Shown here: piece after piece, positions 1 through 35,208 of the stretch | How positions within the stretch are numbered: the first letter of the stretch is position 1 | How the letters are laid out: each line of letters opens with the position of its first letter | Origin: Candidatus Woesearchaeota archaeon | GTDB lineage: Archaea > Nanobdellota > Nanobdellia > Woesearchaeales > ARS49 | Assembly (NCBI GenBank): GCA_018302815.1 | Contig: JAGVZE010000011.1 | Coordinates: 1-64,000 of the forward strand | Length of the DNA: 64,000 bases | Reading direction: 5' to 3' | Notes under the pieces: model-generated | Database searches by the model: none | What the model was told of the DNA's origin: nothing | What the model saw: only the letters and a program-made list of their open reading frames with translations | Translations under genes and position numbers: made by a program

Positions 1-5
1 CTAAG

Positions 6-5536: not shown

Positions 5537-5537
5537 G

Positions 5538-6536: not shown

Positions 6537-6889
6537 TTAAGTACCTTTTTGATCGTTTCAATGACTTTTTTCGGTTCGAACGGCTTCCCCACATATTGTT
6601 TCGCCCCGGCACGCAACGCCTCATCAATGGTTTCTTTCTGACCTGTCGCGCTGATCATAATGACCTTTGCCTGCGGATCCAGTTCCATGATTTTCTGAAG
6701 CGCGGTCAAACCGCTATCTTTCATGACGATATCCAAGAGCACGATGTCCGGCTTCTCCTTTTTGTAGAGTTTTATCGCGTCCCCGCCACTCTCCCCTTCG
6801 ATGATTTGCTTGTAGCCTCCCGTCTTGAGGATGTCTTTTAGAACAGCGCGGATGAAAGCACTGTCGTCAACAATAAGAATCTTTACCAT
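6533..6889 (-). CDS. cheY: response regulator CheY (first of two)
   Basis: This is a single-domain receiver of 118 residues with all key sites: the acidic pair in VDDSAF, the phosphoacceptor Asp in IVLLDIVM, the Thr/Ser site in ISATGQ and the Lys in GKPFEP. In archaeal chemotaxis CheY-P acts on the motility machinery through an adaptor. No archaellum or CheF gene is visible here, so the output is unknown. It starts one base inside the stop of the second cheY (TGATG) and overlaps cheB by four bases. Confidence 0.93.
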   Translation of the reverse strand: MVKILIVDDSAFIRAVLKDILKTGGYKQIIEGESGGDAIKLYKKEKPDIVLLDIVMKDSGLTALQKIMELDPQAKVIMISATGQKETIDEALRAGAKQYVGKPFEPKKVIETIKKVLK

Positions 6890-7254
6890 CAGCCGATCAC
6901 CTTTTTCACTTCCGTGACGAGTTTCTGTTCCGTGACCGGCTTTGTGATATACGCCTTCACTCCCAATTTCAGCGCTTCATCCATGGTTTCTTTGGCTCGC
7001 ACGATGCTCACCACGATGCATTTCACGGCAGGATTTATCTTCTTGAGCGCCCGAAACACATCAAGGCCGGCAGGTTCGCCAGGAAGCCGCAAGTCGAGAA
7101 GCACCAAATCGGGCTTCTCTTTCTTATATTTTTCCACGCCTTCGGCGCCGTTCTCCGCTTCAATGACATCTGTATAGCCGCCCTTTCGCAGCAGGTTTAT
7201 TATCGCTTTACGTTCAAACATCGAATCCTCAATGGTGAGTATTCTTTTTTTCAT
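6889..7254 (-). CDS. response regulator, CheY-like (second)
   Basis: This is a 121-residue single receiver domain. The acidic pair reads TIEDSMF, the phosphoacceptor Asp lies in LVLLDLRLPGEPAG, and the Lys in ITKPVTE. I chose the ATG at 7254 because AGGAGG lies seven bases before it; the open frame extends 18 codons further into cheW. It overlaps cheW by 26 bases. Having two CheY-like proteins beside an extra Hpt protein suggests one may be a phosphate sink rather than the output regulator. Confidence 0.88.
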   Translation of the reverse strand: MKKRILTIEDSMFERKAIINLLRKGGYTDVIEAENGAEGVEKYKKEKPDLVLLDLRLPGEPAGLDVFRALKKINPAVKCIVVSIVRAKETMDEALKLGVKAYITKPVTEQKLVTEVKKVIG

Positions 7255-7831
7255 GGGAAATCCTCCTTTTCGTTCTTTGGCGCGCTGCCTCTCTTTTCCT
7301 GTCATCAACGCTATTTTTGGGTCGTTTTTCCTCTTTCACTCCTTTCAGCTCCGCTTTCGTTACAAGTTCATGCACGTCTGAACTCTCTTGTTCTGAAAGA
7401 AGCTTTTGCAAATTCAGGAGGATGACCATACGTTCACCAAGTATAATGACTCCCTGAAGATACTCTGAATGGATTTTCGTTGATAAGACCGCGGGCGTCC
7501 TCTTGATAGAGTCTTTTTCCGTGCGGAGCACTTCCAAGACCTGTTCAACGATGATGCCAAAAAGATTGTCGCCAACATTCACGATAAGAATGTGCTGCGG
7601 TTTGGACTCAGTAGTGACGTGAAATCTCTTGAGAAGATCAATGACGACTATGATCTTTCCCCGTACATTGATGATTCCCTCGACAAAAACAGGCGCGTTT
7701 GGAACCTTCGTTATCTTCGTCGCCTTGAGTATTTCCTTGACATCAAGGATCGGCGCAGCATACTCCTCTCCCCCGATAGCAAAAACAACGAACTGCATCT
7801 CCTCTTTTGGTTTTTCAAGCTCCGCGTGCAT
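7229..7831 (-). CDS. cheW: chemotaxis scaffold CheW with basic tail
   Basis: CheW links chemoreceptors to CheA. Residues 12-150 form the CheW fold (FVVFAIGGEEYAAPI, then FVEGIINVRGKIIVVIDL and GVIILGERMVILLNL). The last 40 or so residues are an unusual, very basic extension (KEEKRPK...RTKRRISHEKK) that overlaps the start of cheY and is not part of the standard fold. It follows the receptor gene by one base. Confidence 0.93.
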   Translation of the reverse strand: MHAELEKPKEEMQFVVFAIGGEEYAAPILDVKEILKATKITKVPNAPVFVEGIINVRGKIIVVIDLLKRFHVTTESKPQHILIVNVGDNLFGIIVEQVLEVLRTEKDSIKRTPAVLSTKIHSEYLQGVIILGERMVILLNLQKLLSEQESSDVHELVTKAELKGVKEEKRPKNSVDDRKREAARQRTKRRISHEKKNTHH

Positions 7832-7832
7832 G

Positions 7833-9770
7833 TTACCTTTTCGTTTTTTTCTTTATTTTCGAGTCTTCATGCTGAACAGTTTCACGCATTTCCTCGCGGG
7901 GCTCAGGGCTCGTTTGTCGTTTTTGCGGCTCTTTACCCATAAGCTCTTGCAGTCTCGCGGCGATTTCCGCGAGTTGCCGCGCAGACGCGCTGATTTGTTG
8001 AACCGCAGCGCTCGTTTGCTGCATTGACGCGCTCACTTGCTGAGTGCCGGCGGCATTCTCTTCAGCGGTCGCGGCGAGTTCAGTCATAGCCGCGACTATC
8101 TGCTGTGTGCCTGCTGATTGCTGCTGCGTCGCCGCAGAAATCTCCTGCAATTGAGATGAAATATTTTGAGCAGCCAATGAGATATCTTTCACCGCACTGA
8201 GCGATGCGCCGATGACCTCGGATCCTTGCGCGACTTGTTCCGCCCCCTTTTCCATCGAGCTTACTGCGGCATTGGTGCTCTGCTGCATGTCCATGACAAG
8301 CGTGGAAATCTGTTCAGCGGCCTTTCCTGATTCTTCAGCAAGCTTCCTGACTTCATCAGCGACCACTGCAAATCCCCTGCCCTGCTCTCCTGCACGGGCA
8401 GCTTCAATAGCAGCGTTCAGCGCGAGCAGATTCGTCTGCTCTGCGATATCATTGATAGTTTTGATAATAGTGCTTATCTTCGCGCTTTTCTCGCCGAGCG
8501 CCTTTATGCCCGCGGTCGAGTCGAGAACACTGGTTTTGATAGCATCCAAATTCTTAACGCCCCGTTCAGCCGCGGTTCCCGCATCGATAGCTTTCTTGCT
8601 CGCATCAGCCGCACTCTTCGCTGATTTCTGAGCGTTGTCCGCAACCTGGGTGATGGCTGACGACATCTCAGTGATGATCTTACCCACCTCTTCAACCTTC
8701 TCGGTCGCCTTCGTACTGGATGCCGCCATCTGCTGAGTCGTAGAAGCTATCTCTTGAGTGGCGGACGCGGTCGAAGTGCTGGTTTCAGAGAGCTGTTCTG
8801 ACGCGGTAGCAGTGTTCAAAGCAGCATCTTCAATTGTTGCGAAAATCTTTCTTATAAGGAAAAAGCTAACGACACCGGTGATAAGCATCGCGACGAGCCC
8901 TATCAAAGAGAGCGTTGTTGCGAATTGTTCACTTCTTTTCATCTCCCGTATCGTGATAGGTTGAAGTTCCTCATCGAGAAGCGCATCCATCTCACGGCTT
9001 GTTTGCGTGAACAGTTCAATCTCGTACCGTTGCCTGTCTTTGTTATCAATAATCTCTTTTGTCAACGCGGTTATTTTCTGAGATGATATTTTCAACTCTG
9101 CAAAAAGATCACGTTCTGCCGGAGAAAGCTGTAAGCTCTGATACCCGTCCATCAGTTGTTCAACATCAGCAACGAGTCCATCGATGGCTGTTTTGACTTT
9201 TTGATCAGGCATTATGAGATACGATCTGAGCAGAGATGTAATCTCGTATGACTTACTTTTCAAGGTAAAAAGGAGTTCCTGTTTTTTTGAAAAGTGCGCA
9301 TCAGCAACATCCAGTTCTCGCAAACCGATATCGAGAAGGGCTTGCGCTTTTGTTTCGAACGAGATTTTTTCGTCTCTTTTAAGGAGCTGTTGATCCTCGA
9401 GCGCGAAGATTTCCCGCGCTTGAGAGTCAAATTGCTTCATGAGCTCACCGAATCGCAGGAGTGCGTAGCGTTCCTCATCGGTGCGCACAAGAGCGAGATA
9501 CGCAGCATACTCCCGATTCAAATCATCGCGGTTACCGGCAAACTGCACTTTTTCTTCAGGATTCTTTGTCGTGAGATAATCAAGAACGTCTTTTGCGAAT
9601 TCTCTTTGATTGATTTCCAACTCCATGGCTGCTTGAACCTTGGGAGTTTCAAGCTCAACAAGTTCAACGACGGTCGATCGTATGATGAGAAGACTGCCGC
9701 CTGCTACCATCAGCACAATGAGAAACAAAGTTATCAATTTGGATTGAGCACCAAACTTTAGTTGAACCAT
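7833..9770 (-). CDS. methyl-accepting chemotaxis protein
   Basis: This 645-residue chemoreceptor has a membrane helix at about 12-32, a helical extracellular sensor of about 270 residues, a second helix at about 302-324, and a long cytoplasmic coiled coil. The conserved hairpin tip is intact ([32 protein letters not shown], quoted in parts from about residues 445-475). A recognisable HAMP domain after the second helix is missing. Gln- and Ala-rich methylation helices flank the tip. It is the first gene of the operon and the only receptor seen; its ligand is unknown. Confidence 0.95.
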
Positions 9771-10295: not shown

Positions 10296-10433
10296 ATGAA
10301 TGAACTTAGCGAAAGCTCTCGAGAGGGAGATTGTGAGCGGTGCGCGAGGATAGTGCGCGCGAAGGACAAGAAAATCTGTATGCACTGTTATGTCAGCTTA
10401 CTGCATCTGCTGGCGCGTAAGGTGAAGCGATGA
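10296..10433 (+). CDS. zinc-ribbon microprotein, first gene of transfer operon
   Basis: This 45-residue protein has two CxxC knuckles, CERC and CMHC, 13 residues apart, which should bind one zinc ion. The C-terminus is helical and basic (LLHLLARKVKR). It overlaps the next gene by ATGA, so it is translated with the transfer genes. Small zinc-ribbon proteins also follow VirB4 in this operon. The function is unknown; nucleic acid or protein binding is a guess from the fold. Confidence 0.6.
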   Translation: MNELSESSREGDCERCARIVRAKDKKICMHCYVSLLHLLARKVKR

Positions 10434-10819
10434 GGTTCGTTGAGGTTTACTTTTGGTGCGTTATGTACCTTTCAACGTACTTGCTGGTGAGTTTAGTCGT
10501 AAACTTGCTTACTGGCTGGGGCGACCTTGTTGGAATTACCATCATTGGACTGCTTTTGACATTCACACTCGCGCTCATCCTCGTTTGGCAAGACAAACGG
10601 GAGGAACGTGAGTTCGAGTGTATGGAGCCTGCAGAAATTGTGAGTCCAATTCAGCTTTTCTTTGAAAACCAGGAACTATTGGAGGTGAACACCAATGCCG
10701 AAGAAGAAAAAACCAGAACCAAGTCCACCGACCCCGCCAACCGCGGGGGCGGTTCGGAGATTCGCACCGATGTTCGTCTTAGCGAGCTTTCTGCTCCTGA
10801 CGATGATCCTGCCTGTTAG
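10430..10819 (+). CDS. small membrane protein of the transfer operon
   Basis: The 129-residue protein has two membrane helices at about 6-30 and 34-54 (ITIIGLLLTFTLALILVW), followed by an acidic, disordered tail. Its last 125 bases overlap the start of the next gene in another frame, which is unusually long. A ribosome binding site (GGAGGTG) for the next gene lies inside this one. I do not recognise the family. The position suggests a small component of the secretion channel. Confidence 0.55.
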   Translation: MRFVEVYFWCVMYLSTYLLVSLVVNLLTGWGDLVGITIIGLLLTFTLALILVWQDKREEREFECMEPAEIVSPIQLFFENQELLEVNTNAEEEKTRTKSTDPANRGGGSEIRTDVRLSELSAPDDDPAC

Positions 10820-11087
10820 CGCGGCAAGTGCGATGCCTCCCGGAGGGTCGATAGATACTGCGACGTTTGACCAGATATTGCAGCCCGTTTGGAAGATTTA
10901 CAACTTTGTGAAGTATATCGCAACGGCAATCGCTGCGATTGTACTGGTCATCGCAGGAATAGGCGTTATGACGAGCGGCAACGATATGATGAAACGCGAG
11001 AACTCCAAAAACACCATCGGTTACGTCGTGGTGGGTTTGATTATCATTTGGGCAGCTCCGTTTATCATCCAGCTCTTCGCGAGCTGA
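10695..11087 (+). CDS. VirB2/TrbC-like pilin candidate
   Basis: Residues 1-25 are basic and Pro-rich, 26-46 are a signal/membrane helix ending SAASAM, and two further hydrophobic helices follow (AIAAIVLVIAGIGVMTSG and IGYVVVGLIIIWAAPFIIQLF). This matches the architecture of VirB2/TrbC pilins of type IV secretion systems: a long signal sequence and a two-helix mature part. Sequence identity is not diagnostic, so the call leans on the architecture and on the VirB6- and VirB4-like genes that follow. GGAGGTG lies eight bases before the ATG. Confidence 0.6.
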   Translation: MPKKKKPEPSPPTPPTAGAVRRFAPMFVLASFLLLTMILPVSAASAMPPGGSIDTATFDQILQPVWKIYNFVKYIATAIAAIVLVIAGIGVMTSGNDMMKRENSKNTIGYVVVGLIIIWAAPFIIQLFAS

Positions 11088-11108: not shown

Positions 11109-12035
11109 ATGTGCGACATTTTTGACATCGTTGACATCCCACAGTGCGTACTTGATACGATTATCGAGTTCGTGCAGTCCGCGATAAACGCCCCGCTCAT
11201 TCCTTTTCTTCAAACAATCAAAATGCTGCTCACCCAACCCGCCAACATCGCTCCATTTGGAAGTCTTTGGGCAGTCATCATATACCTCATTAGTACGTTT
11301 TACGGACTATTCATCATGTTCGCAGGGTTGAACTTCATCATCTCTGCATACAGCCCAGAACGACGGTACAGAGCCAAAGAATGGCTCCAAAACGTCATCC
11401 TGATGATTATCTGCGTTCAAGCAAGCTTTCTCATCTACAGCCTTGTTTCACAGCTTGCTTCGGGGCTGGCTGGAGTCATTGTCAGAATGATTAATCCGAA
11501 CTTCTTCTACATCACACTTGACGGCGCATTAAACGCCGGATTCAGCATAGCTCTTGGCTTTGCGTACTTTCTGACGCTCCTCGTCACAATTGTTACGTTT
11601 TCCGTGAACTATTTCCTTGCCAGCGTTGGTGTGGTCTTCTTCCCATTCGGAGTTTTCCTTTACTTCATTCCGCCATTACGCGATATCGGCAAGTTCATCA
11701 TCAGCAAACTCATGTTCATCTTGTTCCTGCCGTTCTTCGCAAGTATCCTCTTGCTCGGAGTTTCCCAACTCATGAACATATCCGGTTTTTCCGGAATCAA
11801 AATCCTCTTCATGATAAGCGCTTTTGTCGCCGTTAACGCCTTGATGTTTCTTCTTGCACTTTTGGCAATCTTCCGTAGTGTTATGGGTGTCATGCGCTCA
11901 GATGTCGCTCGCGGGCTGCTATTCTTCAAAGGACACCTGGCGCCCGCATTGTCGAAACAAGAACTAAGCCCGCCAAACGAGCGCGACTACTACGGACGAT
12001 TCAGAAAGGACTATTATGAGCGGAGGGCAAGATGA
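11109..12035 (+). CDS. VirB6/TrbL-like polytopic channel protein
   Basis: The 308-residue protein has about six to seven membrane helices separated by short loops, with a basic, Tyr-rich cytoplasmic end (RDYYGRFRKDYYERRAR). This is the plan of VirB6/TrbL inner-membrane channel proteins. The family is weakly conserved and the call rests on topology and position: it follows the pilin-like gene and overlaps the VirB4 gene by four bases. GGAGGGG precedes the ATG. Confidence 0.6.
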   Translation: MCDIFDIVDIPQCVLDTIIEFVQSAINAPLIPFLQTIKMLLTQPANIAPFGSLWAVIIYLISTFYGLFIMFAGLNFIISAYSPERRYRAKEWLQNVILMIICVQASFLIYSLVSQLASGLAGVIVRMINPNFFYITLDGALNAGFSIALGFAYFLTLLVTIVTFSVNYFLASVGVVFFPFGVFLYFIPPLRDIGKFIISKLMFILFLPFFASILLLGVSQLMNISGFSGIKILFMISAFVAVNALMFLLALLAIFRSVMGVMRSDVARGLLFFKGHLAPALSKQELSPPNERDYYGRFRKDYYERRAR

Positions 12036-15000
12036 CTTACGAAATCCCTCAATCCATCCAGTACAAAGAAAAAATCGTGTTCGACCTGACGCTTGAGCAA
12101 CTCATCTATGCGGTCGGTTTCGGCGTTCCTGCATTCCTTATCTATGCGAAATTAAACGCGTCTCTTTATGCAAGGGTGGGACTTGCGCTCATACCCCTTA
12201 CGATTGGACTTTGTTTCATGTTCTTGGACCTCTACAAGAAATCATCTGAACTACTTGGTTTCTTGCGCTTTCGCAAAGCAACCCTGTTTCAACGCAAGAT
12301 GAAGCGATTCTTACAGCTCAACGCCGTTGAAAACTCGTGTTACGTTGTCAAGACCAAAGGCGGTGAGCGAAGAGTAGCCGTTCTGCGCGTGGAACCACTG
12401 AATTTCAAAATCAAAACGAAAGATGAGCGCGACAGCATCATCTTTGCCTTCCAAAAACTCTTGAACGGCCTCGACTTTCCAGTGCAGTTCCTGATGTACA
12501 CTGACGACTTGAACTTGAATCAATATCTAAAAGAGCTTGAACTAAAAAGCAACGCATCCACCAAGGGCATCCGCCAAGACTTGCTCAAAGCGCACAAAGA
12601 CTATCTTGATGCCCTAATGCAGGATAAACTCGCGGTTAATCGCAAATTCCTCATCGCGATTCCTGAAAATGAAACAGGGTTAGAAGCTCAAATCAAGATT
12701 GTTACCGAGCTCTTGCGCACGATGAACCTCAAAAGCGTTCGACTTGGCGGACGACAGCTCATCAACATTCTTATCAAACTCTTCAACAACCCTCGGGGCA
12801 GAGCAGAACTGCTTAAAGTTGAGAAGAACATATACACTATTGTCGCGCCTGAAGAAGTGGTCAACAGCCCAGATCATATTAAAATCAACGAACATTACAA
12901 CAAAATCATCTATGCATCTGGCTATCCGCGCAGTGTCGAAGAGGGATTTCTTGACAAAATCGTCACAGCCGCAGGCAACTTCGATTTGAGCATTCACATC
13001 GAGCCATTCCCAATTGAAACAACGCTCATCATGCTCAACAAAGAGGTTCAGAAACAACGCGCAGACCTCTACGCTGCTGAGATGAAGCACCAATTCCAGC
13101 CAAGCCTTGAAATCCAGTACAAAGACACGACGGCTGTCCTCAATAGCATCCAAAAGGGGCAGGAAAAACTCTTCAACGTCAGCCTTTACATCAACATAAA
13201 AGCAAAAGACCTGAACGAGCTCAACATTCTCACCAGAACCATCCAGTCTCGCCTCAACAGCATGCTAATTATCCCTCAAACGCCAAAATATCGGATGGCA
13301 GACGCTTTCAAGTCAGTTCTTCCATTTGGACTGAATCAACTTGGAGCGCGAAGAAACATCACCACACAGGCGCTCTCTGCGTTTTTCCCATTCACCAGCC
13401 CTTTCTTGATTCTTGAGAAAGGCGGGGTCTTCCTGGGCTTGAACAAGAATAAACTTCCAATCATCAAAGATATCTTTGCGCTCTCAAACGCGAATGGAGC
13501 GATTCTGGCGACGAGCGGTGGAGGGAAGAGCTACACTGCAAAATTGATTATTTCTCGATATTTGATGAATGGAACCAAAATCATCGTAATCGACCCGCAA
13601 AGCGAGTACACCAAGCTCACAGAGAAATACGGTGGAAGCGTTATTACCATCTCACGAGATAGTCCCACCATCATAAATCCACTTGACTTACTCGGGCACA
13701 CATACGTAGAAAAACGTCTTGTCCTGATGGACATCTTCCGTTCAATGTTTGGTGAGCTCTCAGAGATCCAAAAAGCAGTTCTTGACAGGGCGGTCAGCGA
13801 AACCTACGCAAAAAGAGGCATCACTGAAGACAATTACAAAGACAAAGCCGCCCCAATACTATCAGACCTATATTATGAGCTTGAAAAACTCTCGAAAGGA
13901 GCATCAGTCTATGAACGTACTACTTATATTGCCCTACTCAACCGGCTGCGAATGTATGTTGATGGAGTCTTTAGTTTTGTTAATCGCCAAACACAAATCA
14001 ACATCGACAACGATTTTATCACGTTCAACATAGGCGCGATGCCAAAACAAGTCAAACCTGTGATGATGTTCTTGATTTTGGACTACGTTTATTCTCAAAT
14101 GAAGGCAAGTAGAGGGCGCAAGCTCTTAGTTATCGATGAGGCATGGAGCATGCTCCAAAACGCAGCAGAGGAGGGATACGTCTTCGAGGTGGTCAAGACG
14201 TGCAGAAAGTTCAATCTTGGACTTTTGCTGATCACCCAAGACGTTGCAGACCTCCTCCAAAGCAAAGCAGGGCGGGCAGTCCTCGCCAACAGCTCATACA
14301 ACGTGCTTCTTCGCCAAAAACCCGCAGTCATCGACAACCTACAAGACGTCTTCCATTTGAGCTTCACAGAACGCGAACACTTGCTTACCGCAAACGTAGG
14401 GGAGGGAATACTCATCATGGAAAACGACCACCAAGAAGTACGAATCGTGGCCAGCCCAGAAGAACACAACCTCATCACGACTAACGCGGATGAGCTATTA
14501 GCCATGCAACAGGGCATTTCACCTGCACTTTCCACCGAGAAGAAGCGCATGCTTATCGACCTTGACTTGCGCAAAGGGTTCTACAAGAAGAGCACGCTCA
14601 CGGAAGAAGAGATAGACTATTTGCTCAAGCACGATTACAATGAAAGCAGGCACGTTCCCCTGCGCTCAAACACGCACTCGGTCTTTCTGGTGAAAAAAGT
14701 TGGAAAACATACTCCTGAGCACACCTTCCTGCTTCACGCCACCTATGAGGAGATATTGCGCTATACGGCAAAAGTAAAGAGTGATGAAACCGCCCGCACG
14801 GACGGCATTAACCCAGATGTTCTCTTTACCAACGAGAAGGGCGAGGAGATAGCTCTTGAGATAGAAACAGGGAGCAACCTCAAACACCACCCAGAATATC
14901 TTTCCAATAAGGTCAAACAGCTTGACCAGAAGTATCCGAACAGATGGCACTTTGTTCTAACTTCTGCCCACCACAAGAAGCGATACGCCAACGCCTTCCG

Positions 15001-15178
15001 ATGCTTTGTTCTCCTGCGCTACAATATCCCTCGCTTCGTTAAGCGTCATTTTCCCAGCAGGGAGGTACAAGATAATGTAACAACGCTCCGCCTGTCCCAA
15101 AATATCGACGAGAAAAAACCACAAACACCCGGAGCGCAAAAACAGACAAGCGGAGAAAAACAAGGTGTGCACGCATGA
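12032..15178 (+). CDS. PrgI-VirB4 ATPase fused to a nuclease-like domain
   Basis: VirB4 ATPases power type IV secretion and conjugation. In this 1048-residue protein, residues 1-95 resemble PrgI/VirB3-like membrane proteins (DLTLEQLIYAVGFGVPAFLIYAK and a second helix). Residues 110-840 are VirB4, with Walker A ATSGGGKSYTAK near 495 and Walker B LLVIDEAWSML near 700. From about 890 comes an extra domain: GINPDVLF near 923 and ALEIETGSNL near 943, followed by a basic helix KVKQLDQKYP. The PD...ExE pattern is that of restriction-endonuclease-like folds. Its catalytic Lys is not obvious, so activity is uncertain. Confidence 0.85.
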   Translation: MTYEIPQSIQYKEKIVFDLTLEQLIYAVGFGVPAFLIYAKLNASLYARVGLALIPLTIGLCFMFLDLYKKSSELLGFLRFRKATLFQRKMKRFLQLNAVENSCYVVKTKGGERRVAVLRVEPLNFKIKTKDERDSIIFAFQKLLNGLDFPVQFLMYTDDLNLNQYLKELELKSNASTKGIRQDLLKAHKDYLDALMQDKLAVNRKFLIAIPENETGLEAQIKIVTELLRTMNLKSVRLGGRQLINILIKLFNNPRGRAELLKVEKNIYTIVAPEEVVNSPDHIKINEHYNKIIYASGYPRSVEEGFLDKIVTAAGNFDLSIHIEPFPIETTLIMLNKEVQKQRADLYAAEMKHQFQPSLEIQYKDTTAVLNSIQKGQEKLFNVSLYINIKAKDLNELNILTRTIQSRLNSMLIIPQTPKYRMADAFKSVLPFGLNQLGARRNITTQALSAFFPFTSPFLILEKGGVFLGLNKNKLPIIKDIFALSNANGAILATSGGGKSYTAKLIISRYLMNGTKIIVIDPQSEYTKLTEKYGGSVITISRDSPTIINPLDLLGHTYVEKRLVLMDIFRSMFGELSEIQKAVLDRAVSETYAKRGITEDNYKDKAAPILSDLYYELEKLSKGASVYERTTYIALLNRLRMYVDGVFSFVNRQTQINIDNDFITFNIGAMPKQVKPVMMFLILDYVYSQMKASRGRKLLVIDEAWSMLQNAAEEGYVFEVVKTCRKFNLGLLLITQDVADLLQSKAGRAVLANSSYNVLLRQKPAVIDNLQDVFHLSFTEREHLLTANVGEGILIMENDHQEVRIVASPEEHNLITTNADELLAMQQGISPALSTEKKRMLIDLDLRKGFYKKSTLTEEEIDYLLKHDYNESRHVPLRSNTHSVFLVKKVGKHTPEHTFLLHATYEEILRYTAKVKSDETARTDGINPDVLFTNEKGEEIALEIETGSNLKHHPEYLSNKVKQLDQKYPNRWHFVLTSAHHKKRYANAFRCFVLLRYNIPRFVKRHFPSREVQDNVTTLRLSQNIDEKKPQTPGAQKQTSGEKQGVHA

Positions 15179-15674: not shown

Positions 15675-16434
15675 TTGTTGATATTTTGTTAATTGGATAT
15701 TCTCCCTTATACTCCCAGGTGTTATGGCCTAAAATAGTTCGGTTTAATTCTTCTTTATATTGTTTCCACTGCGGTAGAACTGAATTCATTAAGACGTGAA
15801 AATTATCAGTGTGTTTCTTTTCTAGAAAGTGCAGCATCTCGTGGACAAGCACATACTCCAGGCAATGTAACGGTTTTTTGGCAAGTTCAAGATTAAGCCA
15901 CATACGACCATATTCAGGTTTGCACGTGCCCCATTTTGTCTTCATTTTCTTTATTTTAATCTCTTTTACTTGCACACCTGTCTTTTTTTCCCATTTTTGG
16001 ATAAACAGAGGAATCTGCTTTCTCAACTCGCCTCGATAGAAGTTTTCAATTAATTCTTCTCTTTTTTTGGTGGTGGTTCCCGGCTTTATGTGAAGATTAA
16101 TACGATTTTTGTTTTTAATTTCTATCTTTGGCGATTCAAGTGTGTGAATTACATTCAGAAGGTAACGATTTCCTAAGAAATAATGGCTTTCTCCGGAGAC
16201 GTATTCTCTTTTTGTTTGGCGCGCCTGCTCACGAAAATTATTTTTTTGTTTTTTAATCCATGGAATTCTTGAAATGACGAATAATTGGATTTTTTCATCA
16301 TTTGTATTCAGTGGTGCAGCAACTCTAATACGTCCATTTGGCGGATAAACTCCTAAGTGAATATTCTTGATATTTTTTCGTATTACACTTATTTCAAGTC
16401 CGCCTACGCTCATCATTTTTTGGTCAGTATTCAT
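15637..16434 (-). CDS. YgjP-like (DUF45) zinc metallopeptidase
   Basis: The 265-residue protein has the DUF45/YgjP layout: an N-terminal beta region (IHLGVYPPNGRIRVAAPL), a central basic part, and the zinc site LVHEMLHFLEKKHTDNF (HExxH plus a later His). Members of this family are very often found beside type I restriction genes, as here. It overlaps hsdR by 11 bases, so it is the last gene of the hsd operon. Its substrate is unknown. Confidence 0.88.
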   Translation of the reverse strand: MNTDQKMMSVGGLEISVIRKNIKNIHLGVYPPNGRIRVAAPLNTNDEKIQLFVISRIPWIKKQKNNFREQARQTKREYVSGESHYFLGNRYLLNVIHTLESPKIEIKNKNRINLHIKPGTTTKKREELIENFYRGELRKQIPLFIQKWEKKTGVQVKEIKIKKMKTKWGTCKPEYGRMWLNLELAKKPLHCLEYVLVHEMLHFLEKKHTDNFHVLMNSVLPQWKQYKEELNRTILGHNTWEYKGEYPINKISTINPPISLTIEKS

Positions 16435-19400
16435 TTTGGTTTTTCACAAGCTCGAATACTTTCTCAATCTCTCTATCATCAATGATATTAAATGCTTTCA
16501 GCGTATTTTTAATGGCTATTCTAACCTGTTTCTCTTTTATCCTATTCCCGCGCCACCCGTCTTGTCGATGGTCGAGTACGCTTTCATTTACGCTTAATGC
16601 AAGATTCTCATTGTTTGCGAGGTTGTCATAAAGTGCCTTTTTTGCCTTCGTGTTAATTTGCTTAGGATAGGTAGTTACACCAGTGATATTCTTAACTTGT
16701 TTTGCCAATTCCACTATCTTTTTTAGATAGCTTGCATAATTCTTTGCACTTTCTTTTCTCCCCTGAATGAGTTCATCAAGGAGAACGGACATTTTTTCAT
16801 AATATCGGGGGTTTGTCGGTCTTTCTTCGATTATAAGTCTTCGAACGTTATTCTCTATGGCTTCTGCAACAGCGTCTTTATTCTTCCTTATGTTTTTTGG
16901 TAATGACTCGATTGCGTCAACACCCTGCTTGACTATGAGATCGATAAGCGTTAAGTTGTCAAATGCAGATACTGCTCTGCTTTCTTCCGCGTCGATGTAT
17001 GAATCAATTAAATGGCGCATGGCAGGTTCATACATCTTTAAATCGATATAGTCTCCGCTGGCGAGTTTGATTTCGCTACGTATGTTTTCATAGTATTCTA
17101 CAGATTCTTTTATTTGTTCGGCTTGCTTTGGTGAATAGCCTGCTTCTGACATTTCATTAGAGAGATTTGCATATGCTCTCACGAGTTTTGATGTCAATTT
17201 GTAGAGCGTTACTCTCTTCTGTTCGTTATTTTTTATGTCTTCAGGTTTTTCCGTGTCACCACAGAAATAAGTTATAAACGCTAACGTGTCTTTGGGGGGA
17301 TTAACTGGCTCGCATAATGTTTTTATGCTTTCTAGTGTTAAGTCGACATTTTCTTTTCCAGTTTTGAGTCTATCTTTGAGCAGTCCTTTTACGTCATCTT
17401 TGTCAAACTCTCCGAATGCTTCAGAAGTGTAATCCTTGACGGCCTTATTGAGGCTCTTGAACAAGTCCTTGTAGTCAACAACGTAACCGTAATCTTTGTC
17501 TTCACTATCCAAACGGTTAACGCGGCAAATTGCCTGAAACAAGCCGTGATCTTGCATGTGTTTATCTATGTAAATGTACGTTGCCGGAGGAGCATCAAAG
17601 CCTGTAAGTAGTTTGTCGACAACTATGAGTAATTTCATTTGCCCAGGCTCTTCAACAAATTTCTTTTTTGTTTCTGCTTCAAATTTTTCTGCATCTTTTC
17701 CGGCAAGCATTTTCTGATAGATTTCATATTTCATTAAATTGTCAGTTTCTTCCTCTGGACTTGTGGTCTCGCCTTTAATTGATGCAACATGCGGAGAATA
17801 CGACGTGACGATGGCACATTTTTTAAGTCCATTTTTCTGGAATAATTCGTAGTATTTACATGCCTCATAGATACTTCCCGCGACCAAGATTGCGTTACCT
17901 TTTCCGCTTTTGAGTCGTTCCTTGGTCTCCATATCGAGCATGATGTCTGCAACGATGCGGTTTAATCTTGATTGTGAACTGAGAACTTTCTGCATCGTTC
18001 CCCATTTCTTTTTGAGTTCTGCTTTGGCAAAGTCGGTTAATCCTCTGGTTTTTGCATCGAACCATTGGTCTATCTTAGCTTGAGAAGTTATTTTTTGGTC
18101 TATCTCTCGGGCTTCATATTGTAAGTCAAGCACGACGCTGTCAGCAACTGCCTCATCGTACTTATAAGTGTGGATATAATTGCCGAACACTTCTATGCTC
18201 TTTTTCTTGTCTTTCTTGAGTAATGGTGTTCCTGTGAATCCTATGAATGTCGAATGGGGAAGTATGCTTCTCATTGCTTGATTAAGTGCTCCTGATTGTG
18301 TTCTATGGCATTCATCGACAAAAACGTAGACGTTTCCTTTCGCTTTGAAATTATCAGGCAAATTTATTTTGATTTCATTAAGGAATTCTTCATACTGTTG
18401 TTCCGTATTGCTTCCGAACTTGTGTATGAGCGAGCACATAAGCCAGGGTAGCGTGTTATTCAGTTGTTTGATGAGGTCTTTGCCACTTGTTGTCCTATGA
18501 ATTTTTTCATTTACTCCCACAAAGAACTTCTCTATTTGTCCGTCAAGTTCATCACGGTCAGTAATGATTAAGACTCTTGAATCGTCAACATTCTCCCTGA
18601 TCCATTTGGCAAGCCAGATCATTGTCAGGCTCTTGCCGCTTCCCTGCGTGTGCCAGATGATTCCCCCCTTCCTTTTTTGAATGTGCTGTTGGGCTGCCTT
18701 GACGCCGAAGTATTGGTTATGCCTACAAATCTTTTTAATCCCGCTATCAAATACGATAAAATCGTGCACTATTTCTAAGAGTCTTTCTTTATTGCACAAT
18801 AAGAGAAGATATTTGTCAAGCTTATTTTTTACGTCTGATTCTTCTTTCCACGCAAGATAGTATTTTTCAGGCGTTTCTATCGTTCCATATCGTAATCCTT
18901 CCGTATCATTGCCTGCCATAATCAACTGAATCGTGGCAAAGAATTGTTTGATAAAAATCTCTTTTTGATTATCCAGATTTTGTCGTATGCCTTCTGAAAC
19001 TGCGATCGTGCTACGTTTTAATTCCAGAACTGCTACGGCAATGCCGTTCACATAAAGAACAACGTCAGGGCGCTTGCTGTGCTGCCCTTGGACTGTTACC
19101 TCTTCCGCGATGTAGAAATCATTCTTTTCTGGCTTTTTCCAATTAATGAACTCGACCGTTTGCTTATTTTCACCAACACTTTCTTTGACTTGCGCACCAT
19201 ACCTGAGCAACGAATAGACTTCCTTATTAACGTCATACAATCCTTTGCTTTGATTCGTGGCGGCCTGATTGAGTTCGTATAGTGCCTTTTTGATGAGTGT
19301 ATCGCTATACTTCTGTTTCTTGAGAAACTTGATTAAGAGCTCTTCCTCAATATTGCTATTATTCTGTCGTTCTTCCCAGTTACCAAGATACACGTAATCA

Positions 19401-19474
19401 AGCTTATCCGTGAAGAGCTTGACAACCCTATCCTGCGTCTTCTTCTCCCTCTGCCCAATCGTCAGTTCAGTCAT
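16424..19474 (-). CDS. hsdR: type I restriction enzyme, R subunit
   Basis: HsdR cuts DNA after ATP-driven translocation. In 1016 residues I see the nuclease motif (RPDVVLYV...AVLELKRS, about 136-156), a superfamily 2 helicase with Walker A HTQGSGKS near 280, motif II VDECHRTQSG near 390 and motif III FTGTPLL. A C-terminal helical part follows that would contact HsdM/HsdS. Length is normal and no frame break is seen. It overlaps hsdS by four bases and ygjP by 11. Confidence 0.96.
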   Translation of the reverse strand: MTELTIGQREKKTQDRVVKLFTDKLDYVYLGNWEERQNNSNIEEELLIKFLKKQKYSDTLIKKALYELNQAATNQSKGLYDVNKEVYSLLRYGAQVKESVGENKQTVEFINWKKPEKNDFYIAEEVTVQGQHSKRPDVVLYVNGIAVAVLELKRSTIAVSEGIRQNLDNQKEIFIKQFFATIQLIMAGNDTEGLRYGTIETPEKYYLAWKEESDVKNKLDKYLLLLCNKERLLEIVHDFIVFDSGIKKICRHNQYFGVKAAQQHIQKRKGGIIWHTQGSGKSLTMIWLAKWIRENVDDSRVLIITDRDELDGQIEKFFVGVNEKIHRTTSGKDLIKQLNNTLPWLMCSLIHKFGSNTEQQYEEFLNEIKINLPDNFKAKGNVYVFVDECHRTQSGALNQAMRSILPHSTFIGFTGTPLLKKDKKKSIEVFGNYIHTYKYDEAVADSVVLDLQYEAREIDQKITSQAKIDQWFDAKTRGLTDFAKAELKKKWGTMQKVLSSQSRLNRIVADIMLDMETKERLKSGKGNAILVAGSIYEACKYYELFQKNGLKKCAIVTSYSPHVASIKGETTSPEEETDNLMKYEIYQKMLAGKDAEKFEAETKKKFVEEPGQMKLLIVVDKLLTGFDAPPATYIYIDKHMQDHGLFQAICRVNRLDSEDKDYGYVVDYKDLFKSLNKAVKDYTSEAFGEFDKDDVKGLLKDRLKTGKENVDLTLESIKTLCEPVNPPKDTLAFITYFCGDTEKPEDIKNNEQKRVTLYKLTSKLVRAYANLSNEMSEAGYSPKQAEQIKESVEYYENIRSEIKLASGDYIDLKMYEPAMRHLIDSYIDAEESRAVSAFDNLTLIDLIVKQGVDAIESLPKNIRKNKDAVAEAIENNVRRLIIEERPTNPRYYEKMSVLLDELIQGRKESAKNYASYLKKIVELAKQVKNITGVTTYPKQINTKAKKALYDNLANNENLALSVNESVLDHRQDGWRGNRIKEKQVRIAIKNTLKAFNIIDDREIEKVFELVKNQNEY

Positions 19475-20724
19475 TTTAATCGGATCTTCCCAGTCAACAA
19501 CTGCTGCATCAGACCGGTCTTTAACTGCTCGTATTTATCTCTCTTTTGCTCCAACTCCTCAAGCTCCACATCCATATCTGAAAGAACGCGAGCGATGGCT
19601 ATTTGTTCTTCTTTTATAGGAAGGGGAACTAAAATGTTTCTTATTATGGTTAAATTTAATCCGCCTCGGCCACCCTCACCCGTTGATAAGTTACGAAGCT
19701 CATTGTATCGGGTATTAAGATTGTAATATAAATATTCAGGGACAAATGTTTCATTGGGAAAAATTGCCCCGATTGATTGGTTTGTGCATAAATCAACATA
19801 ATTTATTGCCACGGTGCCTCTCGTCTTTCCTTGCCCTGCAAGTCCGATCAACACGCACTTGGGAGGTATTAATTTTGCACTAGAATTCTTTAAACCTAAT
19901 TCAGTAATTCTCCCTCCCACATCGTATACTTTCTTAAGATTTAATTCTCCAGAACTCATCCATCTTATGCTACCATTCCAATAATCCGGTACAAATGTGC
20001 TTGGAGTGCCACCTGAATACATTTCTGCAATAGCGCCTATTTTTTTAACATCCCACTCATCTTTAAACCCTGGCAGCCTTTTCTTTCCGGTAAGGAGCTG
20101 TTGCATTGCTCCTTGTTTGATGTTCTTCTTTTTTGCAATAAGCTTGTCGAGGGATTCGATGAGTGTGTCGGTGTCGGAAAGAACGCGAGCAATGGCGGAT
20201 TGTTCAGTGAGTGTGGGCGGTACTGGAATTTGCAAAGATTGGTATTCATTACTATTTAATCCGGGCTGTCCGCTTCTCATTGAATTTGCTAACACCCAAG
20301 CCAAATATGATTTTGTTTGAGTTAAGAAAATTAAATATTTGCAATCAAGTAGTTTTGGATTTACTTTTACTCTAATCAAGAACCCTGCGAAAACCAATTT
20401 CCCATCATTTTTATTATACAAATATGTTTTCCCTACGCTCGCACCTGTTCTTGCAAAAACGATATCGCCTTCCTCTAAATAGTAAGAATCAGCAAGAGTA
20501 TTATTTACTGACACTTTGTTTGAACTTAAATATTTCCCATCCTCAGAAATATCCGTAATCCTTAAATAAGTTGGAAGTGTATCATTATACGCTACTGCTG
20601 CCGCATTAATTCCATAATCGGGATTTTTAAGCAAACATTCCCCCAGTCTCTTTACCTCCCACTCATCAGGGATTATGCCTATCTCGGTCTGTTTGTATCC
20701 TTTAGGGATGGTTTCGATTACCAT
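19471..20724 (-). CDS. hsdS: type I restriction enzyme, specificity subunit
   Basis: The 417-residue protein has two target-recognition domains, each followed by a conserved helix pair: about 20-170 with SLQIPVPPTLTEQSAIARVLSDTD, and about 225-375 with NILVPLPIKEEQIAIARVLSDMD. Two full domains imply recognition of a bipartite DNA sequence; the sequence itself cannot be read. It overlaps hsdM by seven bases and hsdR by four. The sites in such genes can be exchanged by recombination, but no extra hsdS cassette is visible here. Confidence 0.95.
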   Translation of the reverse strand: MVIETIPKGYKQTEIGIIPDEWEVKRLGECLLKNPDYGINAAAVAYNDTLPTYLRITDISEDGKYLSSNKVSVNNTLADSYYLEEGDIVFARTGASVGKTYLYNKNDGKLVFAGFLIRVKVNPKLLDCKYLIFLTQTKSYLAWVLANSMRSGQPGLNSNEYQSLQIPVPPTLTEQSAIARVLSDTDTLIESLDKLIAKKKNIKQGAMQQLLTGKKRLPGFKDEWDVKKIGAIAEMYSGGTPSTFVPDYWNGSIRWMSSGELNLKKVYDVGGRITELGLKNSSAKLIPPKCVLIGLAGQGKTRGTVAINYVDLCTNQSIGAIFPNETFVPEYLYYNLNTRYNELRNLSTGEGGRGGLNLTIIRNILVPLPIKEEQIAIARVLSDMDVELEELEQKRDKYEQLKTGLMQQLLTGKIRLK

Positions 20725-23123
20725 TTGAAGCCCATGTTTTTCAGGTGGCTATCGACTTTCCTTGCTGTGCTTTCGACTTCGTGCGTGAGTGCTGGAAGCG
20801 GCGTCTGATAACGTTCTGCGAGTTCCTTTATTCGTCCCGTGAGTTTTTGCGAGATGTTGTCCATTTCTGACTTGATAGCAGTATGTAGCGCAGTCATCCA
20901 TTTATCTTCAACAACAAGTGTCTTAATTTCTTCTTCAGTCAAGTTTTTGTATTTGACCAGTAATTTTTTGTCGAGCAGTTCTTCTGCTTCGTCAAGTTTG
21001 CCATTTAGTTCTGACTCTTTTTCGGTAAGCGCGATATATTCTTGCAAGACTTTCAATTCTTCGACGAAATCTTTATCGCCTCTGATTTCTTTGATTCGTT
21101 TTGATACATTTCCTTTGTTTATCTTTCCCGCCTCAGTTCTTGCTTCTGCGAAGAAATCATCTTCGCCAGAGTTTTCTTCATCGAGCGTCTGCATTTGCTG
21201 ATCTACGTTTTCGAGCTCAGACTGTAGTTTTTCAGTGACTTCCTGTTCTTTTGCAAAATACTTATGAATGGCAATGTCTTTCGGGATTAAGTCACAGTCC
21301 CAGCCAGCCTCTTTCCCTTTTTTATTTTTCAGTATGTTTATTTCGACTTTCCAGCCATTTACTGCGATAAGGTATACATCATCTTGCATTGTTTCTGACC
21401 AGTATGTCATCAATTGTTGATAAACGTCATATTTGTCGATAAGCTCAGTCTTAGAGAACGTGCTGAGCAAGTCCTCTGAAATAGCAAGAATGATATCTTT
21501 TGGCTTAGTCCCTATTTTGATGGCTTTCAAAAGTGGCGCGTTCTTATCTTTCCAATTCTTGAACGTTCTTTCTGTTTTTTGTGAAGCACTTACGAATTCG
21601 GGGTGTGAAAAGATGGTGGATTTTATTTGTGATGGCTCAATTTTCAATGAGGAGTATCCGTTTCTTTTGCTTGAGGCGAATAGCTCTTTTTTCAATGAAG
21701 GATATACTTGCCAATACGATTCTAAGTTGTCAATATCCTTGTTGGGAATGTCTCCTGATAAGTGGGCATCAATATCTTGCAGATCTTCTTCATCTTGACT
21801 GTCGATATAGCGAGGAATGTTGAGGTTAAACTCATTCTTTTCAATTTCCTCGTATGCGACCAGTCGGGAATATTTTGGAAGCGCTATTTGTTTGGTAAAC
21901 GCGTCGACTATTTTGTGGATGTCTCTGTCTCTGAGTCGGTTTTTGTTTCCGTCTTTGATGAAGCCTTTGCTTGCGTCTATTAGGAATATGCTTTTGCGGT
22001 TTTCGGCGTTTTCTTTGTCGAGTACGATAATGCATGCAGGGATTCCTGTTCCGTAGAACAGGTTTGCTGGAAGACTGATGATTCCTTTGATGTAGCCTCT
22101 TTTGATGATGTTTTTGCGAATTTCTGCTTCAACGTTGCCTCTGAAAAGCACGCCGTGCGGCAGGATGACTGCTGCTTTGCCTGTGCTTTTGAGTGATTTT
22201 ATCATGTGTAATAGGAATGCGTAGTCTCCGTTCTTTTCTGGCGGGATTCCGAATCCCTCAAATCTTCTGTATTCGTCGTGCAAGGGGTCGATCCCGTTGC
22301 GCCAAGACTTAGTTGAGAAGGGGGGATTTGCAACGACAAAATCGAATTGTTTCAAAGTTCCATCTTGATTTGTGAAGTGCGGTTTTGAAATGGTGTTGCC
22401 TTGCCAAACGTCGGCTTGAGGGTGGTTGTGTAGGATCATGTTCATTTTTGCTAAACCGCGCGTGGCTACATCGTTTTCTTGACCATAGATTGTGATGCCG
22501 TGTTCTGTTTCATCCGCAGCCTTCAGAAGTAAGGAGCCTGACCCGCAGGTTGGGTCGTAAACGGTCTGGTCTTGTCTTTTTGCCTGATTGATGCTTATCA
22601 CTTTCGCCATGATGCGCGATACTTCTGCAGGGGTGTAGAATTGACCTTTGCTCTTGCCTGATTCTGTTGCGAAATGACGCATTAAGTATTCATATGCGTC
22701 CCCTAGAATATCGTCTCCTTCTGCTCTGTTTTTACTGAAATCTAGCTCAGGATTTTCAAAAATTGCAATGAGATTCGAAAGGCGATCAACCATATCCTTT
22801 CCTTTACCTAGTTTATCAGGATCATCAAAATCAGCAACATCAATGACACCTCTTAGATCGTTTTCTTCGGCAAGTTTTTTTATAATACTGTTAATTCCTT
22901 CTCCAATATTGGGTTTGCCTTTGAGTGCCAGCATATCTTTGAAGCTACCGCCTGTAGGGATTTCAATAAGCGCATCTTTTTTGCCAGCATATTTGTCAGA
23001 GACGTATTTTACGAACAATAACACAAGCACATAATCTTTGTACTGAGAGGCATCCATGCCTCCTCTCAATTCATCACAACTTTTCCAAAGAGAACTATAT
23101 AGTTCACTTTTCTTGATGGCCAT
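20718..23123 (-). CDS. hsdM: type I restriction enzyme, N6-adenine methyltransferase subunit
   Basis: The methylase core is complete: an N-terminal helical domain (SELYSSLWKSCDELRGGMDAS), SAM-binding motif I VYDPTCGSGSLLLKA near 190, and catalytic motif IV VVANPPFST near 265. At 801 residues it is longer than the common 500-residue form because of a charged, coiled-coil-rich C-terminal extension of about 250 residues. It starts two bases after the stop of a small RHH gene and is co-transcribed with hsdS and hsdR. Confidence 0.96.
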   Translation of the reverse strand: MAIKKSELYSSLWKSCDELRGGMDASQYKDYVLVLLFVKYVSDKYAGKKDALIEIPTGGSFKDMLALKGKPNIGEGINSIIKKLAEENDLRGVIDVADFDDPDKLGKGKDMVDRLSNLIAIFENPELDFSKNRAEGDDILGDAYEYLMRHFATESGKSKGQFYTPAEVSRIMAKVISINQAKRQDQTVYDPTCGSGSLLLKAADETEHGITIYGQENDVATRGLAKMNMILHNHPQADVWQGNTISKPHFTNQDGTLKQFDFVVANPPFSTKSWRNGIDPLHDEYRRFEGFGIPPEKNGDYAFLLHMIKSLKSTGKAAVILPHGVLFRGNVEAEIRKNIIKRGYIKGIISLPANLFYGTGIPACIIVLDKENAENRKSIFLIDASKGFIKDGNKNRLRDRDIHKIVDAFTKQIALPKYSRLVAYEEIEKNEFNLNIPRYIDSQDEEDLQDIDAHLSGDIPNKDIDNLESYWQVYPSLKKELFASSKRNGYSSLKIEPSQIKSTIFSHPEFVSASQKTERTFKNWKDKNAPLLKAIKIGTKPKDIILAISEDLLSTFSKTELIDKYDVYQQLMTYWSETMQDDVYLIAVNGWKVEINILKNKKGKEAGWDCDLIPKDIAIHKYFAKEQEVTEKLQSELENVDQQMQTLDEENSGEDDFFAEARTEAGKINKGNVSKRIKEIRGDKDFVEELKVLQEYIALTEKESELNGKLDEAEELLDKKLLVKYKNLTEEEIKTLVVEDKWMTALHTAIKSEMDNISQKLTGRIKELAERYQTPLPALTHEVESTARKVDSHLKNMGFKW

Positions 23124-33485: not shown

Positions 33486-33674
33486 ATGAGCAAGTGCATT
33501 CGGTTCATGTTCCGCGTTAGTCCGCAAGAATTTGAGCGTCTCAAGAATAATGCAAGAATGCGAGGTTATCCAACTGCCGCCGCATTCATCCGCTCATCAG
33601 TATTGGATCGTGACCTTTGGCTGGAAAAGAAAATAAGCGAAATTCTTGATATTTTAAAAGAAAAGAAAAATTAG
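33486..33674 (+). CDS. ribbon-helix-helix protein
   Basis: The 62-residue protein (CIRFMFRVSPQEFERLKNNA and then PTAAAFIRSSVL) matches RHH proteins such as MobC-type mobilization factors and antitoxins. The palindrome between its TATA box and start suggests autoregulation. It converges on the integrase gene with a four-base overlap, as expected for a gene helping integration or excision; that is inference. Confidence 0.65.
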   Translation: MSKCIRFMFRVSPQEFERLKNNARMRGYPTAAAFIRSSVLDRDLWLEKKISEILDILKEKKN

Positions 33675-34429
33675 CCGATGTACACGCTTGCAGAATCACC
33701 CTGTCTCAACTCCTGTTTCAAGCGCCTGAACGTATTCCCGTCGATTTCGCCAAGCGCGAGTCTGCGCATCAGGATTCCTAGCGGGTCGAGTTGTGTGCTG
33801 TTTGAGAGCGTTTTTGGCACGTTTCTGCCGAATGCCTCGTTCACTTTGTCTTGGATGACCTTGCTCGTCACGTGGGTGTAAATCATCGTGGTTTCAATCT
33901 TTGAATGCCCAAGTGCAGTTTTCACGGATAGAATATCTCCTGTTTTCTCCCACAATAACGTCGCATAGGTGTGTCTGAGCGTATGGAAGTTGTATTGGTG
34001 TCGTGGTCTGCCCCGTGCGTCAACTTTAGCGACTCTGCGCAAGTTTGCTTTTGTGAGCGCCTGCTTGTACGCTCTCCACAAGTGTCCTGTAGCAATCGGC
34101 ATCGAAGTGTTCTTGATACTGGGAAAAAGGTAAACTTGTTCGCCAATAATCTCCAAATGCTGTTTGAGCGTGCCTGCGAAGCACTCTGGGAACGGAACTA
34201 CTCTGTCTTTGCCGTAACCTTCATAGGTTCTTCGAGGGTTCTTACTATCATCAACACAGACTCGGCGGGCCGTAAAATCAATATCTTGGACGCGCAGATT
34301 GCAAACTTCTCCAAGACGCAACCCGCAGAACAATCCAAAGAGAATCGCAGTCATGAGCCACGGCTCATCAATGGCATCAACGAGCTTTCCTACATCTTCG
34401 CGATTGAACACTTTTGGAAGCTTTCTCAT
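33671..34429 (-). CDS. tyrosine recombinase, catalytic domain only
   Basis: The 252-residue protein has the tyrosine recombinase residues Arg38 (GLRLGE), His149-x-x-Arg152 (HTLRHTYA), His175 (LGHS) and Tyr184 (IYTHV). It begins almost directly with the catalytic domain and lacks the usual N-terminal SAM-like core-binding domain. The gene upstream overlaps it by four bases and may supply DNA binding. A tRNA-Pro gene lies 0.7 kb away, a common target for archaeal integrases. Confidence 0.9.
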   Translation of the reverse strand: MRKLPKVFNREDVGKLVDAIDEPWLMTAILFGLFCGLRLGEVCNLRVQDIDFTARRVCVDDSKNPRRTYEGYGKDRVVPFPECFAGTLKQHLEIIGEQVYLFPSIKNTSMPIATGHLWRAYKQALTKANLRRVAKVDARGRPRHQYNFHTLRHTYATLLWEKTGDILSVKTALGHSKIETTMIYTHVTSKVIQDKVNEAFGRNVPKTLSNSTQLDPLGILMRRLALGEIDGNTFRRLKQELRQGDSASVYIG

Positions 34430-35034
34430 AAGAACACCTCCTTGACAAGACTGCGCGCGCCTTCAAGAAGCGTGAGCCCGACAGCCGCTTTCCTCTGCCG
34501 CTCCCGATTTTGCATGGCTCTAATCGCCTGAATTCCCGACACCTCACCCTTTTCCATCCTGTCCTTCAATTCTTCGGGCACAAGCGTTTGTAAAAGCCAT
34601 TGGTACAGCGTAGGAGCCTTGATTCCATACTTTTGCAGTAAATCCTCAACCACCTGCTCTTCTTCTGTCAAATCCTTTATTTCGCCGTAATAGAAGCGTC
34701 CAATACGCCGAACAGTTTTACGAATCTCCAATGGAGACTTTTCAGGAAGCATAACTCCAAGGCGTTGCTTTAATTCAAGCATCAATCTCCACTTATCCTG
34801 CGCTCGAAGCTCAGCGTAACGTATGCCGTAAGAACTCTTCCTGTGCGAGGCAAGCCGATAGACTTGGTGCGCTTGAAGCCCCTTCTCGGCCAGGTATGAA
34901 TGAACTTCTTGTTCAGGACCGCGAAGGTCCTTGACTTCACCGTTCTCGAAATGGACGATTCTGCACAGTGCCGCTCTAAGCTGGCTTTCAGGCAGTTCAA
35001 AATTGTTCTGCAACGCTTTCCAGTTGTTTTGCAT
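34426..35034 (-). CDS. integrase partner with internal repeat
   Basis: The 202-residue protein contains two related segments of about 45 residues: CRIVHFENGEVKDLRGPEQEV and RRIGRFYYGEIKDLTEEEQVV, each followed by LxxKG/KYG and a helix (each quoted in part). It ends with a charged helix and overlaps the recombinase start by four bases. I infer a DNA-binding protein that stands in for the missing N-terminal domain of the recombinase. No database family is recognised. Its promoter carries the right-hand operator. Confidence 0.6.
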   Translation of the reverse strand: MQNNWKALQNNFELPESQLRAALCRIVHFENGEVKDLRGPEQEVHSYLAEKGLQAHQVYRLASHRKSSYGIRYAELRAQDKWRLMLELKQRLGVMLPEKSPLEIRKTVRRIGRFYYGEIKDLTEEEQVVEDLLQKYGIKAPTLYQWLLQTLVPEELKDRMEKGEVSGIQAIRAMQNRERQRKAAVGLTLLEGARSLVKEVFL

Positions 35035-35090: not shown

Positions 35091-35134
35091 CCGAAAGCCT
35101 TTAAAAGGAGAATCTGGAATTACATGTTAGACTC

Positions 35135-35208
35135 GGGGATATGGTCTAACTTGGTTATGATGCGTGGTTTGGGACCACGTTGTCCCGGTTCAAATCCGGG
35201 TATCCCCA
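35135..35208 (+). tRNA. tRNA-Pro (TGG)
   Basis: The acceptor stem GGGGATA pairs with TATCCCC. The D arm, a CGTGG/CCACG anticodon stem with loop TTTGGGA (anticodon TGG), and a T arm CCCGG-TTCAAAT-CCGGG are all present; the discriminator is A at 35208. No CCA is encoded and no intron is seen. A TATA-like CTTTAAAAG lies about 32 bases upstream. Confidence 0.95.

Follow-up and report, generated by a model that had tools for sequence, protein, structure and literature searches.

Which enzyme starts DNA transfer in archaea, for whose conjugation and DNA-exchange systems no relaxase is known (PMC9905601, PMC6563490, PMC12857230)? The question is raised by a stretch of 64,000 nucleotides from Candidatus Woesearchaeota archaeon (assembly GCA_018302815.1, contig JAGVZE010000011.1, positions 1 to 64,000), hereafter the window, in which one gene of a type IV secretion system (T4SS) joins in a single chain a PrgI/VirB3-like membrane part, a VirB4 motor ATPase and a C-terminal domain resembling PD-(D/E)XK nucleases, hereafter the tail. 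We put at roughly one half the probability that the VirB4 motor of a minimal archaeal T4SS on integrative elements has, in the tail, a relaxase-like nuclease of its own. The original prediction, made from sequence alone, had proposed such a three-part protein of 1048 residues, and its PrgI/VirB3-VirB4 portion proved sound. The open reading frame runs intact from an ATG start; PrgI (PF12666) is matched over residues 5-71 just above the model's cut-off (27.4 bits against 27), and the VirB4-like CD1110 family (NF045971) over residues 118-798 with 338.9 bits against a cut-off of 325, while a P-loop_TraG match spans residues 484-791. The Walker A and B motifs, likewise predicted to be complete, are intact in 36 of 36 relatives. 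Three intact genomic copies, together with relatives in other genomes, rule out a frame or assembly artefact. As PrgI is encoded by its own gene in several relatives (loci L077, L083, L087, L088 and L097), the three-part chain represents a variable fusion.

Is the tail a nuclease at all? Single-sequence searches of Pfam, NCBIfam and the PDB with the tail (residues about 840-1003) returned nothing useful, and it matched no known non-nuclease extension of VirB4. In an alignment of 50 diverse tails, H897, D929, F932, E943, E945, G947 and K960 are invariant wherever covered, and residue 985 is a tyrosine in 49; the invariance of H897, D929, E943, E945 and K960 extends to members sharing 20-35% identity. 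Such invariance in 50 copies rules out a chance motif. AlphaFold produced a confident α-β-β-β-α-β core both for the window tail (predicted local distance difference test 85.6) and for a stand-alone relative (91.9). In this core D929 directly precedes the second strand, the third strand bears E943 and E945, and K960 lies on the helix after it. Foldseek searches against the PDB returned mostly nucleases of the PD-(D/E)XK fold, including EndoMS, the nickase BspD6I, TnsA, Hjc, Cdn1/Can2, PspGI and HindIII. Two structural models and the conserved residues thus support the suggested nuclease-like third domain: computationally, the tail classifies as a PD-(D/E)XK domain whose site is of the ExE type, with predicted catalytic activity. 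The PD...ExE pattern pointed out originally was confirmed (D929, E943 and E945), and this metal-type site is conserved across homologues; the domain boundaries had to be revised, since the domain begins at about residue 840, slightly before the proposed 880-1010 interval.

The next question is which PD-(D/E)XK enzymes the tail resembles most. MOBC relaxases belong to this fold (PMC12857230), and the MobC model NF041423 matches 4 of 49 tails (best E 2.1e-4). We compared profiles with hhalign, using a MobC profile built from seven MobC relaxases; the MobC in the CloDF13 record is broken by frame errors, and an intact one from Klebsiella aerogenes was used instead. The set consisted of 74 gene clusters and controls, with other nuclease families such as CoiA, Hjc and Cas4 outside it. 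For the MobC profile, the best match in this set was the tail (P=8e-5), with the stand-alone tail cluster second, and for the tail profile MobC came next after the tail's own family (P=5e-4), whereas P was at least 0.039 for the Vsr and HsdR profiles. The MobC-tail alignment is in register, the H, PD and ExE of one falling on those of the other, and the N-terminal part of the tail aligns solely to the end of the MobC winged helix. Among the profiles tested, then, that of the tail is closest to MOBC relaxases. A scan of viral contigs with MobC found no relative.

A search for other VirB4 proteins with the same tail revealed that they are common in the clade. The tail profile matches in 64 of the 353 genomes of the order Woesearchaeales and in 15 genomes from other orders of the class; the named relatives are Woesearchaeota, Pacearchaeota, Nanoarchaeota and one Diapherotrites record. 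A one-off fusion is ruled out by this spread. The genome itself has three copies, those on C13 and C24 being 90% and 65% identical to the window copy. All VirB4s that are at least 47% identical to the window protein and have their 3′ end inside the contig carry the tail. A sister VirB4 group at ~35% identity (L116-L119) ends after the ATPase, which means that a T4SS can do without the tail. Among distant VirB4s, L113 and L120 have an ExQ form and L125 an ExE form.

Close pairs of these proteins point to exchange within the tail. The VirB4 bodies of L090 and L092 are 96% identical, and their DNA is 82-97% identical up to about codon 920. Across the catalytic half of the tail it is down to 25-60%, and immediately past the gene it is back at 97-100%; further close pairs display the same drop within the tail. 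Judging from these alignments, recombination swaps the catalytic half as a cassette between near-identical VirB4s. Recombination thus alters the part presumed to contact DNA, as expected of a specificity-bearing enzyme.

The tail also occurs away from VirB4. We identified 21 loci in which it stands alone, mostly behind transmembrane and coiled-coil segments, although the 21 include one sequence twice and some contig-end fragments. An integrase is present in 18 of the 21, and roughly twelve have a small tyrosine recombinase gene (~170-230 residues) directly upstream on the same strand, often overlapping. On the tree, the domain must have changed between the fused and the stand-alone state four times or more; a tblastn search of plasmids with the stand-alone tail gave no match. 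One bacterial relaxase family, MOBM, is tyrosine-recombinase-like (PMC12857230), and the small recombinase beside stand-alone tails could matter for this reason, but we regard this as a lead only. Furthermore, HerA-like ATPases of the same class (L171, L172, L174, L173 and L130) end in a winged helix and a similar ExE tail, and L130 has transmembrane segments and weak matches to coupling proteins. These sequences suggest that FtsK-HerA pumps have possibly become associated with this nuclease repeatedly.

What kind of element carries the fusion gene? The gene is the last of an operon that also encodes a small membrane protein, a VirB2 pilin and a polytopic VirB6-like protein (Table 1). The VirB6-like family is present in 31 of the 41 VirB4-tail loci and lies directly upstream of VirB4 in the window. 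An integrase occurs in 16 of these 41 loci compared with 1 of 20 background loci (p=0.006), and restriction-modification genes in 20 of 41 compared with none of 20 (p=7e-5); the controls were hand-picked from long contigs, so that the p-values are indicative. The recombinase and its partner recur in the C13 and C24 copies. Direct repeats of 60 bp (2521-2580 and 28943-29002, 98% identical) flank the C13 copy and enclose recombinase and Type I restriction genes, and a 44-bp sequence of the window, overlapping tRNA-Pro, is 89% identical to these repeats. The tRNA-Pro gene is the likely integration target of the element. For the window copy, no sufficiently long direct repeats were found between 8.5-10.8 kb and 33-39 kb; its left end is uncertain, with a weak match GGGGATA (TGTTAGA upstream) at 71-96, beside the contig end. 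In agreement with the earlier observation that no relaxase was seen, the whole genome has neither a PF03432 relaxase nor a PF02534 (VirD4-type) coupling protein, FtsK-type coupling proteins not having been searched for; the PF03432 relaxase is absent from 352 of the 353 genomes.

Table 1. Features of the fusion gene, its operon and the surrounding element (window coordinates)
Feature	Position	Strand	Basis
PrgI/VirB3 - VirB4 - PD-(D/E)XK fusion protein, 1048 residues	12032..15178	+	
PrgI/VirB3-like N-terminal membrane part, residues 5-71	12044..12244	+	PF12666
VirB4 N-terminal domain and ATPase, residues 117-791	12380..14404	+	NF045971 over cut-off
Walker A (ATSGGGKS, residue 493)	13508-13531	+	motif
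Walker B (VIDEAW, about residue 700)	14123-14146	+	motif
C-terminal PD-(D/E)XK nuclease-like domain, residues about 840-1003	14549..15040	+	conservation, AlphaFold, Foldseek
Tail residue H897	14720-14722	+	
Tail residue D929	14816-14818	+	
Tail residue E943	14858-14860	+	
Tail residue E945	14864-14866	+	
Tail residue K960	14909-14911	+	
Tail residue Y985	14984-14986	+	
129-residue protein with two transmembrane helices, operon head	10430..10819	+	conserved in C13, C24 and G013
VirB2-type pilin	10695..11087	+	PF18895 E=2.4e-12, PF04956 E=5.3e-10
Polytopic VirB6-like channel protein, 308 residues, about 7 transmembrane segments	11109..12035	+	position and topology
47-residue reading frame overlapping the VirB4 stop codon	15175..15318	+	ribbon-helix-helix look by eye only; no Pfam match
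Type I restriction-modification cargo	16424..23123	-	PADLOC models
HsdR	16424-19474	-	
HsdS	19471-20724	-	
HsdM	20718-23123	-	
Tyrosine recombinase (33671-34429) and partner (34426-35034)	33671..35034	-	PF00589 E=5e-26
Attachment-site-like sequence, overlapping the first 7 bases of tRNA-Pro	35098..35141	+	likeness to C13 repeats
tRNA-Pro (TGG)	35135..35208	+	ARAGORN

Several further features of these loci deserve mention. Most operons (L085, at 7181-8545, and 23 further loci) encode an exported protein of ~450 residues between VirB2 and VirB6, which in some cases is joined to VirB6 in a chain of 670-690 residues; it is missing in the window copy and present in C24. The 47-residue reading frame is also found behind the C13 copy and in G002. 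Downstream of VirB4-tail genes, some loci encode a protein of ~380 residues (L087:12940-14094; also L081, L084 and L091) in which archaeo-eukaryotic primase-like motifs are discernible by eye, with no Pfam match. The Type I systems beside two copies (window 16424-23123 and G000:C13 16440-23943) are 22-29% identical compared with 79-90% for the T4SS proteins, a difference that, as read from the sequences, is due to cargo exchange. Repeats of ~100-280 bp, several having TGTTAGA...GGGGATA like the attachment site, form a family (window 1-290 and 1666-1792; G000:C13 1-280, 4277-4616, 5039-5289 and 8800-9016) that suggests a tandem array of integrations at tRNA-Pro. A chemotaxis cluster (CheA, CheB, CheY-like, CheW-like and a receptor; 2550-9770) lies between the attachment-site-like sequence at ~90 and the T4SS operon, and may be either host DNA or element cargo. 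The product of 39465-40886 looks like a multicopper oxidase, with HxH copper motifs seen by eye.

How might such a protein work? From what was computed here, namely the fusion, the fold, the invariant active site, the element context and the similarity to MOBC, we infer that the fused nuclease would do the job of a relaxase in cis, in keeping with the original suggestion that the third domain might process DNA at the channel. The tail would recognize a site on the excised element and nick or cut it with a metal ion bound by D929, E943 and E945. Since the motor that contains the tail would sit at the mouth of the channel, the strand would then pass directly to the pump. With the nuclease residing within the motor, a separate relaxase or coupling protein would not be needed. 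Free-standing, mostly membrane-anchored copies, which lie on other integrated elements, might act as mobilization proteins, docking at the channel of a helper and taking their own element there. Nicking, site specificity and docking, as well as transfer and its direction, all belong to this proposal. The complete scenario, in which a VirB4-fused MOBC-like nuclease both initiates transfer and delivers the DNA, the cassette changes specificity, anchored copies hitchhike and the missing archaeal initiator is accounted for, is more tentative, and we give it rather less than an even chance.

Several results weigh against a relaxase role. Similar tails occur on HerA-like ATPases with no T4SS genes recognized alongside, so the domain is not tied to conjugation. 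The Foldseek matches are weak when taken one by one (E 0.0035-0.7), and the MobC similarity stays under the curated 200-bit cut-off in all 353 genomes. The ERxxKxxxRY motif that follows ExE in all seven MobC rows is absent from the tails, where columns 948-956 are variable; for this reason we call the tail MOBC-like rather than a MOBC member. No origin of transfer (oriT) was identified. Finally, the searches covered two relaxase and coupling-protein models, and a relaxase of unknown type or an FtsK-like coupling protein could exist.

The alternative that fares best, although we consider it unlikely, is that the nuclease serves DNA import as in Ced/Ted, incoming DNA being trimmed or one of its strands degraded before recombination; nucleases in natural competence process incoming DNA likewise. 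The minimal VirB2/VirB6/VirB4 set indeed resembles Ced/Ted (PMC9905601), the lack of a PF02534 coupling protein in the genome fits as well, and 5 of the 49 tails give a weak match to the Pfam model of the competence nuclease CoiA (best E 0.0033). However, the MobC profile match is significant, CoiA having been outside that comparison, and the genes reside in a minority of genomes, where they do not form a core chromosomal import locus but belong to integrated elements that also carry recombinases and restriction-modification cargo. Stand-alone copies beside recombinases and without any T4SS gene also speak against import.

Somewhat less probable still is that the tail protects the element, through exclusion or defence, by cutting foreign or competing DNA as it comes in at the channel, in the manner of HerA-nuclease defence pairs. 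The adjoining restriction-modification genes, the similar tail on HerA-like ATPases and the diversification of the catalytic half by cassette exchange would all suit such a role, as would a PADLOC HerA/mad8 match, except that this match is limited to the ATPase. Moreover, the VirB4-borne tail is part of a full T4SS operon, and the partners of the stand-alone forms are recombinases rather than known defence genes.

We find it improbable that the tail is non-cutting and binds DNA or a partner as a docking or specificity module. In line with such a loss of activity, E945 replaces the lysine of the canonical motif, and sequence change is faster in the tail than in the motor (mean identity 35% versus 56%). 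Yet BamHI-type ExE sites are active, and in an otherwise diverging domain every member that covers them keeps the same five catalytic-type residues. In addition, the two closest copies display purifying selection in the tail (dN 0.10 and dS 0.87 for nonsynonymous and synonymous changes), which means that the tail is kept by selection. Finally, a toxin injected into neighbouring cells is very improbable: the C-terminal position and cassette swapping recall polymorphic toxins, but the nuclease is fused to the motor itself, no consistent immunity-like gene lies downstream, and stand-alone forms are mostly membrane-anchored and follow recombinase genes.

We know of no other T4SS motor with its own nuclease, and no description of a VirB4 with a C-terminal nuclease was found in the open-licence literature searched. 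If the relaxase-like reading is correct, the tail would be the first such case, joining substrate processing and pumping, and would represent the missing enzyme that starts archaeal DNA transfer. As this candidate is concrete and widespread and its active site is defined, the archaeal relaxase question can be tested directly. The stand-alone forms, in turn, point to a class of helper-dependent elements in DPANN archaea.

Compared with known systems, the window protein is, by its PrgI N-terminus, Walker motifs and NF045971 match, a monoderm-type (FATA) VirB4 of the CD1110 family, to which a nuclease tail has been added. VirB3-VirB4 fusions are known in some conjugative systems, with none found in Patescibacteria (PMC12102498). 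Like Ced/Ted, the system has a minimal set of VirB2 pilin, VirB6 channel and VirB4 motor and no relaxase; unlike Ced/Ted, for which no motor-fused nuclease is described in the literature examined, it resides on integrated elements, and the CedB model scores 45.5 bits on the window protein, far below its cut-off of 700. Archaeal integrative-conjugative elements (thaumarchaeal ones and Sulfolobus plasmids) similarly have an integrase, VirB4 and VirB6 and no canonical relaxase (PMC6563490), but here VirD4 (PF02534) is missing and the nuclease is fused to VirB4. HerA with NurA or other nuclease partners likewise couples an FtsK-HerA type pump to a nuclease, and similar winged-helix and ExE tails occur on HerA-like ATPases of the class; however, these are DNA-repair or defence pumps without T4SS genes, and the fold of NurA is different. 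By profile, the closest counterparts are MOBC relaxases (MobC of CloDF13 and TraX of pAD1; NF041423, PF13814), PD-(D/E)XK enzymes of mobile elements that share with the tail the conserved H, PD and ExE and a reciprocal best profile match among those tested. Whereas they are separate bacterial proteins with an N-terminal winged helix and ERxxKxxxRY, the tail is archaeal, fused to VirB4, and has an invariant K960 and a near-invariant Y985 instead.

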